From an uncultured Clostridia bacterium (GTDB lineage: Bacteria; Bacillota; Clostridia; TANB77; CAG-508), in NCBI GenBank assembly GCA_947626765.1, contig CANQTQ010000013.1, positions 1 through 39,905 of the forward strand: a stretch of DNA of 39,905 bases, in the 5' to 3' direction. Shown here one piece after another: positions 10,268-15,344 of the stretch (the first letter of the stretch is position 1; each line of letters begins with the position of its first letter). The notes beneath the pieces were generated by a model. That model made no database searches and was not told where the DNA came from. It saw only the letters and a list, made by a program, of their open reading frames with translations. The translations under genes were made by a program, and so were the position numbers.

Positions 10268-10840
10268 TTATTTAATTTCAGCTAGAGCAAGTTCTAAAGC
10301 TTTCATATTACCTTCTATTACTTCTGGTTTTTTTGCAAATTTATGAGCAAAAGAACCTTTCATATCTTCTAAAAATTGTTTTTCATCCATAATTCCTGAA
10401 ACTTTAACAATAGCTGCAAGCATTGGAGTATTTGGAAAATATTTTCCAAGAGCTTCTATTGATATTTTTCTAGCATCAATAGTATAAACATCTCCATTAT
10501 AATTAGGTAACAATTTTTTAATTTCATCTTTAGTTTTTGTTGTATTAATAATAATAGCTCCATCTTGTTTTAATCCAGCAGTAACATCAACTGTTTCTAA
10601 TAAAGTGTCATCAACTACTACAACATAGTCTGGTTCATAAATATTACTATGAATACGAATTGGCTCATTACTAATACGGTTATAGGCAGTAATAGGAGCG
10701 CCCATTCTTTCTGGACCATATTCAGGAAATCCTTGAATATATTTTCCAGTATTAAATGCAGCATCAGCAAGTAAAAGTGATGCTGTTTTTGCACCTTGGC
10801 CGCCTCTACCATGCCATCTAATTTCAATTAAATCTTTCAT
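10268..10840 (-). CDS. porC: Pyruvate:ferredoxin oxidoreductase, gamma subunit
   Basis: This is the 190-residue gamma subunit of POR. The N-terminal motif RWHGRGGQGAKTAS is characteristic, followed by FPEYGPERMGAP and the VVVVDDTLLE strand. The length is standard. It is the first gene of the operon, with an AGGAGGT Shine-Dalgarno and its own perfectly spaced promoter (10876-10904), placed downstream of the small RNA terminator. Confidence 0.95.
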   Translation of the reverse strand: MKDLIEIRWHGRGGQGAKTASLLLADAAFNTGKYIQGFPEYGPERMGAPITAYNRISNEPIRIHSNIYEPDYVVVVDDTLLETVDVTAGLKQDGAIIINTTKTKDEIKKLLPNYNGDVYTIDARKISIEALGKYFPNTPMLAAIVKVSGIMDEKQFLEDMKGSFAHKFAKKPEVIEGNMKALELALAEIK

Positions 10841-10875: not shown

Positions 10876-10904
10876 ATTTTATGCTTAATTGTGTTTGATG
10901 TCAA
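10876..10904 (-). promoter_or_regulatory. Promoter of the porCDAB operon
   Basis: On the minus strand, TTGACA (10904-10899) and TAAAAT (10881-10876) are separated by 17 nt. The predicted start is near 10869, giving a leader of about 30 nt before porC. Confidence 0.8.
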
Positions 10905-10919
10905 GAAAATTAAAAATAA

Positions 10920-11105
10920 AACTAAAAAGGTATGATGAATATTTACATCATACCTTTTAGTTATTATAAAGAGGAATAAAAATTGGGGCTCTCTTTATAA
11001 TATAGAGAGTAGTTTGCAACATCAGATGGCTTAATTATTTATATAATGTTCCCACCCTGATGAATTGCAATGATAATTTTTAAGTGAAAATTTCTTTTCA
11101 CTTAT
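10920..11105 (-). ncRNA. Candidate stand-alone structured RNA, about 185 nt
   Basis: A consensus promoter (11112-11140) is followed by four consecutive foldable segments and then an intrinsic terminator, with no ORF. The segments are a 5' hairpin AAGTGAAAA/TTTTCACTT; a long interrupted stem closed by TTGCAA/TTGCAA with CATCAG/CTGATG, TGG/CCA and ATTAT/ATAAT inside; a CTCTC/GAGAG hairpin; and a terminator stem at 10921-10961. The 5' TATTATAAG can also pair with CTTTATAATA upstream of the terminator. porC has its own promoter downstream, so this is probably an independent sRNA rather than a leader. I could not match it to 6S, SRP, tmRNA, T-box or any riboswitch consensus I know. Its size would suit 6S RNA, but the multi-hairpin shape does not. 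Confidence 0.55.
10921..10961 (-). terminator. Terminator of the candidate sRNA
   Basis: The 15-16 bp stem, ACTAAAAGGTATGATG with its complement CATCATACCTTTTAGT (one bulge), is followed on the minus strand by a T-rich run. It separates the RNA from the por promoter. Confidence 0.75.
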
Positions 11106-11111
11106 AATATA

Positions 11112-11140
11112 ATTATAGCCCTATTTTTTATGACAGTCAA
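11112..11140 (-). promoter_or_regulatory. Promoter of the candidate sRNA
   Basis: On the minus strand, TTGACT (11140-11135) and TATAAT (11117-11112) are spaced by exactly 17 nt. The start is expected near 11105. Confidence 0.75.
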
Positions 11141-11180
11141 TTTGTTTATGTTATTTTGTTTTTCCAATTTTTCCCATATA

Positions 11181-11360
11181 TTATTGTTCATTATTTGGTT
11201 CTGGTGCTCCAACTGGGCAAACTCCAGCGCAAGTTCCACATTCTATGCAAGAATTTGGATCTATTTGGTATTTGCTATCTCCTTGTGAAATGCAACCTAC
11301 AGGACAATTTGCAGCGCATGCTCCACATCCTATACATTTATCTGTAATTTTATATGCCAT
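11181..11360 (-). CDS. Small 2[4Fe-4S] ferredoxin
   Basis: This is a 59-residue clostridial-type ferredoxin with two cluster-binding motifs, CIGCGACAANCPVGC and CIECGTCAGVCPVGAP, the usual electron acceptor for POR encoded next door. I chose ATG at 11360 because the Shine-Dalgarno AGGTGG overlaps the in-frame GTG codons just upstream. It is on the same strand as ricT and downstream of it. No hairpin is visible between this gene and the sRNA promoter, so read-through into the RNA locus is possible. Confidence 0.95.
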   Translation of the reverse strand: MAYKITDKCIGCGACAANCPVGCISQGDSKYQIDPNSCIECGTCAGVCPVGAPEPNNEQ

Positions 11361-11398
11361 ATTTTTCACCACCTTTCAATGCTACGACTTATAGTTTT

Positions 11399-12328: not shown

Positions 12329-13217
12329 AATTTTAATAGCATATTGTCAATTGACATATCATAATTGGAATTTGCTAAAATTCTTTGTTTTGTTTGTTCT
12401 ATTATTTGTATTCCATTTGCGTAACATATTTTATTTTCTTTTTTTAATAACTCATAAAATACTAATATCATATATTCTAATAATGGAATAATATTTTCTT
12501 TTGCATCATACAAAACTTGTGCTTTTTGCCATATTTCAGTAATATCTTGTGTTTTAATGTTTTGTATTAATTCTTCTATTTGCATATATTGCTGCTTTTC
12601 TTCTTCAATTTTAAGCGCTCTTCCTATACTTCCGATTGCAATTTTTTATCATTGATTCTGTAATATTTGTATATAAATTATTTTGTTTTAAATAATCTGT
12701 AATTTGCTCATCTGAAATTGGCATAAAATTTATTTTCATACAACGAGATTTTATTGTTGCTAATAATTTACTTTCATTAGACGTTATTAAAATAATTATA
12801 GCATATTCTGGTGGTTCCTCTAATGTTTTTAATAAGGCATTTGCTGCTTCCCTTGTCATGGTTTCACTATCATTTATAATATATACTTTTTTTGAAGATG
12901 TTATTGGTTTTTCTGCTATTTTTTCTCCGCATATATCTTATTTGTTCAATTTTAATTGATTTTCCATCTTCTGGTTCTATTTGCATAAAGTCTGGATGAT
13001 TTTTACTTTCGAATTGTATGCATGATTTGCAATTATTACATGATGTTTTATTTTCTCCTATGCAAAGTATCATTTTAGCAAATTCTATTGCAAATAGTTT
13101 TTTTCCTATTCCATTTTTTCCTACAAATAAGTAGCTATGAACTAAGTTATTTTCTGCTATTGATGTAGTTAGTAACTGTTTTATTTTTTCATTGCCTATT
13201 ATTTTTTCAAAAGCCAC
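12310..13217 (-). CDS. holB: DNA polymerase III delta-prime subunit, split by two +1 frameshifts at CGG
   Basis: The reading frame is interrupted twice, yet the three pieces together form one complete clamp-loader delta' of 301 residues. Piece 1 (from 13217) has VHSYLFVGKNGIGKKLFA and the zinc cysteines C-x8-C-x2-C-x2-C; it is in frame 0 up to codon 96 (ATG). The next codon, CGG at 12929-12927, must lose its C to give MGEKIAEKP and the delta' core MTREAANALLKTLEEPPEY. The second CGG at 12634-12632 must again lose its C to give CNGSIGRALK, a conserved helix turn. Without shifting, the products would end after 115 residues. 908 nt minus 2 is exactly 302 codons. Everything else is intact and it overlaps ricT normally, so I call it a functional recoded gene rather than a pseudogene. 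Confidence 0.85.
12632..12634 (-). other. CGG +1 recoding site, holB site 2
   Basis: The context is TGC AAT CGG AAG in frame 0. Skipping the C gives AAT GGA AGT ATA GGA (N-G-S-I-G). Frame 0 meets TAA seven codons later. The P-site codon is AAT. Confidence 0.75.
12927..12929 (-). other. CGG +1 recoding site, holB site 1
   Basis: The context is TAT ATG CGG AGA in frame 0. Skipping the C gives ATG GGA GAA AAA ATA GCA (M-G-E-K-I-A) and joins the frame that encodes the conserved delta' core. The P-site codon is ATG. Confidence 0.78.
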
Positions 13218-13912: not shown

Positions 13913-15344
13913 TTATTTTTTGTTAACAGGAATTCTAATTACAACTTCTGTACCTTTGCCAACTTCACTTTTTATATCTATACTACCATTATTTTGGTTT
14001 AATATTTCTTTTGCAATAGGAAGTCCGTAGTCCTGTTCCACCCATTTCACGGGTTCTTGCTTTATCTACTCTATAAAATCTTTCAAATATTCTAGATAAG
14101 TCACTTTCTGGAATTCCAATTCCATTATCTATTACCTTAATATATGCATCATTATATACAAAACCTACATATACCTTAATTGTTCCATTTTCTTTAGTAT
14201 ATTTAATTGCATTTGAAATAATATTTAAAATTACTCTTTCTATGCCATATTTATCTGCATGTACTGGTGGAACATTTGCAGTTACAAAGCATTCTACATT
14301 ATGAGATTTCTTTTCTATTTCAAATTTTAGTCTTTCTATACATTTTTTAGTTAAATCGCCTAAATCAAATTCTGATTCTTCTTTTACAATTTTTTTATTA
14401 TCATATCTAGAAAGTATTAATAAATCTGTTACTAGTTTTGCCATTCTTCTTGCTTCTGAACTAATAACCTCCAAGAATTTAGTTTGCATTTCTTTATCAT
14501 ATTCACTTTCTAGTAAAGTATCTGCATACCCCATAATAGAAGTAATAGGCGTTTTAAGTTCATGGGAAACATCTGCTACAAATTCTTTTCGCATATTATC
14601 TAGTTTTACATGTTCTGTAATATCTTGAATTACAACAATTACACCTGCTGGCTTTTCATTTTCATCTTTAAATGGTGCAAAAAGAAGATTAACATATTTT
14701 TCTCCTATATTAAGTCTTTGCTCTGATGTTGTCCAATTTTCTAAATATACAATTTTTTCTAAATTAATATCTGATTGTAATTTATTAAATATTTGGTTAA
14801 AATTTTCATCTTGTTTACTTAAATTTAATAATTCAATAGCAGCAGGATTTATATGAATAATTTTTCCTTCCATATCAAATGCAATAATTCCATCTGTCAT
14901 GTGAAGCAAAATAGTTTCTATTTGTTTTTTTTGCTTTCCCATTTCATTTAAATTTTGTTTTAATTCTTTTGTCATTAGGCTAAAAGCATTAACAAGTTCA
15001 TCTATTTGTGTTTTTTTCTTGCCTGTTTCTTCTATTTCTACTTCTTCACCTTTAGCTATTTTCTCTGCATTTTGAATTAATGTATTAATTGGTTTTATAA
15101 CAGATTTTGACACAAAATAGCCTACTAATAAAGTGATAATAGAAAACACACCAATGGCTACTACTGTAATTATTTTAGTTTGCTCAATTTGAGTTTCTAT
15201 TAAGCTATATGTTTCTTGCATGTCTACAAGTGGTTTTGCAATTTGCCCAAGCATAATAATATGAAAAAGTGAAATTGCACTAATTATGGTTATGCCTAAT
15301 ATAAAAAAGATTAATATAATTTTCGTTTGTATACTTTTTATCAT
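13913..15344 (-). CDS. walK: WalK-type sensor histidine kinase with a +1 frameshift at CGG
   Basis: The full product is 476 residues: TM1 (7-31), a short extracytoplasmic loop of about 25 residues, TM2 (58-78), HAMP (80-130), PAS (140-245), HisKA with phospho-acceptor His261 (VSHELKTPITS), and HATPase_c (N box ISNAIKYT, G1 DNGIGIP). At the G2 box (GGTGL, residues 435-439) the frame-0 codon 440 is CGG. Reading on gives 12 meaningless residues and a stop at 13989; omitting the C gives GLGLPIAKEIL and a normal C-terminal beta segment (GSIDIKSEVGKGTEVVIRIPV) ending at 13913. 1432 nt minus 1 is 477 codons. It is paired with walR 12 bp upstream. The very short sensor loop is unlike Bacillus WalK, so PhoR-like is the alternative. 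Confidence 0.85.
14025..14027 (-). other. CGG +1 recoding site, walK
   Basis: GGA CTA CGG ACT in frame 0 becomes GGA CTA GGA CTT CCT ATT when the C is skipped, restoring the invariant G-L-G-L of the kinase G2 ATP-binding box. The P-site codon is CTA. Confidence 0.82.

Follow-up and report, generated by a model that had tools for sequence, protein, structure and literature searches.

Trans-acting small RNAs (sRNAs) of the Firmicutes, such as RoxS/RsaE and SR1, are transcribed from an independent promoter, end at an intrinsic terminator, span 100-200 nt and contain several hairpins, with RoxS/RsaE also carrying a C-rich seed motif. More generally, a free-standing, terminated and structured non-coding RNA that is restricted to one clade is most often a trans-acting sRNA. 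The locus considered here lies in a stretch of 39,905 nt from an uncultured Clostridia bacterium (the window, from genome G000), where a first-pass annotation of the sequence had placed an unassigned structured RNA of about 185 nt between a ferredoxin gene and the por operon. A putative RNA of about 187 nt can indeed be delimited at this place, and homologues occur in five further genomes (G025, G009, G013, G027 and G005). With moderate confidence, we read it as a free-standing small non-coding RNA gene, most likely encoding a trans-acting base-pairing regulator and confined to a clade of six species.

The coordinates of the RNA, its signals and its neighbours are collected in Table 1. The promoter that had been proposed is found on the minus strand, with TTGACT at 11140-11135 and TATAAT at 11117-11112. 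In so AT-rich a stretch, promoter-like sites do not by themselves exceed chance (5 observed vs 6.9 expected), and the weight of the assignment therefore comes from the identity of the hexamers across the six species. The A-rich stretch upstream of the -35 box is a possible UP-like element. The proposed intrinsic terminator is clear, three such sites being found where shuffled sequences lead one to expect 0.4. A second promoter, described as perfect and assigned to porC, does exist as a separate site, although one letter departs from the consensus. As expected of an independent sRNA gene, the promoter and terminator of the RNA are conserved together.

Table 1. Features of the RNA locus and its flanks (window coordinates)
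Feature	Position	Strand	Remarks
porC (Pfam POR), first gene of the por operon	10268..10840	-	Neighbour, outside the RNA unit
Promoter-like site TTGACA-17-TAAAAT ahead of porC	10876..10904	-	Separate site; 11/12 consensus letters
RNA gene	10919..11105	-	About 187 nt, with both ends inferred (5' from the -10 box, 3' from the terminator); covariance model match
Intrinsic terminator, hairpin P4 and T-rich tail	10919..10961	-	Scores on the + strand as well
Hairpin P3, 12 bp (TATTATAAAGAG / CTCTTTATAATA)	10962..11002	-	Loop length and sequence vary between species
Linker J2/3 ACTACTCTCTA (relatives: ACTRCTCTT-like)	11003..11013	-	Mostly unpaired; second candidate seed
Hairpin P2 (TTGCAA..CATCA...GG / CC...TGATGTTGCAA) with AT-rich apical stem	11014..11070	-	Predicted fold
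Linker J1/2 AAAATTATCA	11071..11080	-	Unpaired, invariant in six species; candidate seed
Hairpin P1 (TAAGTGAAAA / TTTTCACTTA)	11081..11104	-	Predicted fold
Promoter TTGACT-17-TATAAT	11112..11140	-	11/12 consensus letters; both hexamers identical in six homologues
A-rich stretch upstream of the -35 box	11141..11176	-	Only modest conservation, 58-92% between species
2[4Fe-4S] ferredoxin (Fer4)	11181..11372	-	Neighbour, outside the RNA unit

The predicted fold is considerably more stable than chance, as an independent sRNA gene would require: the 187-nt RNA reaches -56.2 kcal/mol vs -25.7 kcal/mol for shuffled sequences (z -8.6, equalled by 0 of 200 shuffles), and the window RNA without its terminator still gives z -6.0. 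Hairpins P1-P3 alone score between -5.3 and -7.0 in the six homologues, and the full fold scores -9.4 and -7.3 in two homologues. Four hairpins and a terminator had been described in the first-pass annotation; the predicted folds instead show three hairpins plus the terminator hairpin. The stem that it had drawn from paired TTGCAA strings, with CATCA(G)/(C)TGATG inside, is invariant except for one outer pair in one species. Its CTCTC/GAGAG match is present in the sequence but competes with the longer 12-bp P3 stem, which wins in every homologue, and its closing match between the 5' and 3' ends is absent from every predicted fold.

Outside the G025/G009 pair, where identity is 99%, the RNAs are 85-95% identical between species at aligned positions. 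The four-fold sites of porC among the same six genomes are 65-82% identical pairwise, again excepting G025/G009 (96%). For pairs involving G027 or G005, whose flanks are mostly unalignable (~35-56%), the RNA remains 85-95% identical with unchanged hexamers. Set directly against porC in pairs whose flanks largely fail to align, the RNA is 85-92% identical and the porC four-fold sites are 65-79% identical. This comparison supports purifying selection on the RNA relative to synonymous sites of porC. Variation is also unevenly placed, with 7 of 107 paired ungapped columns variable vs 11 of 45 unpaired ones (Fisher p 0.004), and changes in length occur mostly in loops. The P3 loop is free in length and sequence, and no pair is lost from the 12-bp stem beneath it, the only change being A-U to G-U in one species. 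Of the 56 base pairs, 47 never vary, and the single compensatory pair (A-U to G-C) lies in the terminator hairpin P4. With stems so nearly invariant, the fold is supported by its energy and by the pattern of constraint rather than by covariation. A peptide gene can be set aside: by eye, the alignment shows that the sole ATG frame seen in the window RNA, which starts in P2, is not conserved, since in the relatives stop codons end or truncate it or indels move it out of register.

Whether such a segment belongs to one of its neighbours is decided by the arrangement of the locus across the six genomes. In G000, G025, G009 and G013 the order is ricT-ferredoxin-RNA-porC, with the por operon following on the same strand as the RNA, an arrangement that could be read as a cis-acting leader or attenuator of porC. 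The RNA nevertheless has its own terminator and porC its separate promoter-like site, and G027 and G005 have the por operon the other way round, with its last gene, porB, converging on the RNA. The segment is thus not upstream of and co-oriented with porC in all homologues, as a riboswitch or leader should be, and we reject this reading as scarcely credible. A second possibility is that the segment forms the end of the ferredoxin mRNA, serving as its 3' UTR and terminator and having no separate function; in the window only ~40 nt separate the ferredoxin stop codon from the -35 box on the minus strand, with no terminator between. In G027 and G005, however, ~0.9 kb and a small ORF on the opposite strand intervene between ferredoxin and the RNA, and the promoter and three-hairpin body are kept all the same. 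This explanation is likewise rejected, as very improbable.

The promoter, RNA and terminator thus persist as a block despite rearranged flanks, which identifies the three together as the selected unit and bears out the earlier proposal that the unit is independent. That the neighbourhood is rearranged in two species is stronger evidence for an RNA gene in its own right than either position or fold alone. Since this terminator scores on both strands, it might serve in G027 and G005 to end convergent por transcription. The suggestion of redox or carbon control, which had been drawn from position, loses its main support with the inversion of por and the distance to ferredoxin in these two genomes; the RNA probably lies next to the ferredoxin and pyruvate-metabolism genes by coincidence, and the case warns against reading function off adjacent redox genes.

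Some further features of the window and its relatives were recorded alongside. Frameshifted-looking genes occur at window positions 12611-13217, 13989-15344 and 38038-39322; a DNA polymerase III delta' gene lies in two ORFs, a WalK-like histidine kinase ends GGTGLRTSYCKRNIKPK and an amidohydrolase is split in two. Such frameshifts are possibly assembly errors, or may be real. Towards its C terminus, the protein encoded at 36663-37658, which looks like an Rpn/PD-(D/E)XK-type nuclease, has repeated RKEGRQEG specified by a 12/24-nt tandem repeat (36782-36846). Beside ferredoxin, several members of the genus carry a small conserved ORF (~100 aa, of the MDSKLSLESALKKLERSP... type) with no Pfam match, located at L005:2244-2555 and L006:2171-2464, with relatives downstream of ferredoxin in L054, L069 and L070.

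The distribution of the RNA is narrow. A DNA search returned five strong homologues (82-91% identity), and a covariance model built from all six RNAs, run against 30 genomes of the genus, recovered these six at 158-203 bits, with the next matches at no more than 31 bits. In each genome the RNA is single-copy and at one place. Across 143 genomes of the order, the model scored strongly only in G000 and G005, and a pattern scan of 84,980 GTDB genomes gave only five strong model matches; none of these searches turned up a close homologue beyond the six. Weak matches (L038, L039, L041 and L042) align mainly through the terminator or AT-rich sequence, and none retains P2 together with P3. No other match from the pattern scan was persuasive as a homologue, the lowest nhmmer E being 0.003 (L110). 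Nor did a divergent copy emerge between ferredoxin and porB in other members of the genus, by model search, by nhmmer or in the sequences inspected. Two genomes that lack the RNA carry short direct repeats of ~40-60 nt near ferredoxin, ATTCGAGC.TTTCGC.GCT.AAAAAA.. and AAATTGTAGTT.TTTA.CTACAAAATAATGA, located ~110-240 nt downstream of ferredoxin in G003 (L058) and ~710-820 nt downstream in G017 (L070).

In a PorC tree, the six hosts form one side of a branch (support 86/85), a pattern consistent with a single gain, or else with loss or unrecognizable divergence in other lineages. Presence in 6 of 30 genomes, as a single copy at one place, is also what one might see for a structured element that is selfish or newly acquired and does nothing for the cell. 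We consider such an element unlikely, given the signs of purifying selection, the single copy per genome and the lack of any match in the plasmid and phage collections searched; a distribution on plasmids or phages, or a wider one, was rejected after these searches.

If the RNA is a trans-acting regulator, it would be transcribed from its own promoter and end at its intrinsic terminator, the hairpins would give it stability, and the unpaired linkers J1/2 (AAAAUUAUCA) and J2/3 (ACURCUCUU) would serve as seeds for pairing in trans. Complements of the two linkers in the six genomes identified no convincing target in a start region, recurring only within coding sequence or at chance level. One candidate, AGAGTAGTTTG, is present in five species within the 3' end of a gene for a small membrane-anchored protein, upstream of a gene for a secreted protein (MKKQLL...); it was discarded because protein conservation explains its recurrence.

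Among 25 start regions in the window, the best duplex with the RNA is formed by rpsB (z -2.6), whose first codons complement both strands of P2. The complementary sequence is equally conserved in members of the genus that lack the RNA, and this complementarity is therefore no argument for rpsB, which was rejected as a specific target. A more adventurous reading, in which the RNA founds a new family with a partner or target that is novel among sRNAs, for example tuning translation via ribosomal protein S2 (rpsB), is a long shot. The rpsB start (window 18269 leftwards; L184-L209) merits a remark in itself: codons 1-11 are letter-for-letter the same (ATGGCAGTAGTTGCAATGAAACAATTACTAGAA) in 23 of 23 genus genomes with a pattern match, and CTAAAAGGAGGA upstream of the start is nearly identical where sequence covers that stretch; G005 differs at codon 2. 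By comparison, the porC four-fold sites of G003 and G015 are only 54-71% identical to those of the six. This suggests that the region is constrained beyond the protein that it encodes.

Rather than base pairing, the RNA might act by binding a protein, as a sponge or scaffold. The stems are conserved in sequence as well as in pairing, including all of P3 save the one G-U change, as such a role would favour; on the other hand, no repeated protein-binding motif is seen, and the RNA is neither 6S RNA nor a member of an Rfam family. We regard this second mode of action as less likely, and continue to favour a base-pairing regulator.

Comparison with described RNA families places the locus outside each of them. 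The first-pass annotation had called for an Rfam search: no Rfam 15 family reached its gathering cut-off anywhere in the window or at four homologous loci, and at E up to 10 the RNA stretch returned only noise, the best being a eukaryotic snoRNA on the other strand (E 0.61). Literature searches of titles and abstracts likewise found no matching RNA. With 6S RNA (RF00013) it shares a similar length and a stand-alone gene, but differs in having neither a model match nor a closing stem with a central bubble. The bona fide 6S RNA of this genome lies elsewhere, on another contig (G000:C37, 103 bits), and the new RNA is therefore not a missed 6S; a second 6S copy was also dismissed, G000:C37 being the only match to RF00013. 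The window sequence contains AGGGTGG, resembling the T-box motif AGGGUGG; a T-box leader was rejected, the relatives reading AAGGTGG or AAGATGG, with no downstream tRNA-related gene and no Rfam match.

On the best reading of the sequence, this locus is probably a real, lineage-restricted gene for a small RNA that is ordinary in kind and represents a new family. A well-delimited gene of this sort, with no Rfam match, is thereby added for a genus of gut Clostridia known here mostly from metagenome assemblies. The RNA differs from RoxS/RsaE, compared by motif rather than by sequence, in that no C-rich single-stranded seed is conserved: CCCC stands in the P3 loop of the window species only, in a loop that varies in sequence and length, and no CCC motif is shared among the homologues. 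Small RNAs have, in one account, been termed taxonomically restricted yet transcriptomically abundant (PMC8216469). In its own promoter, intrinsic terminator, size and several hairpins, the RNA most resembles the lineage-restricted sRNAs of the Firmicutes, RoxS/RsaE and SR1 among them.
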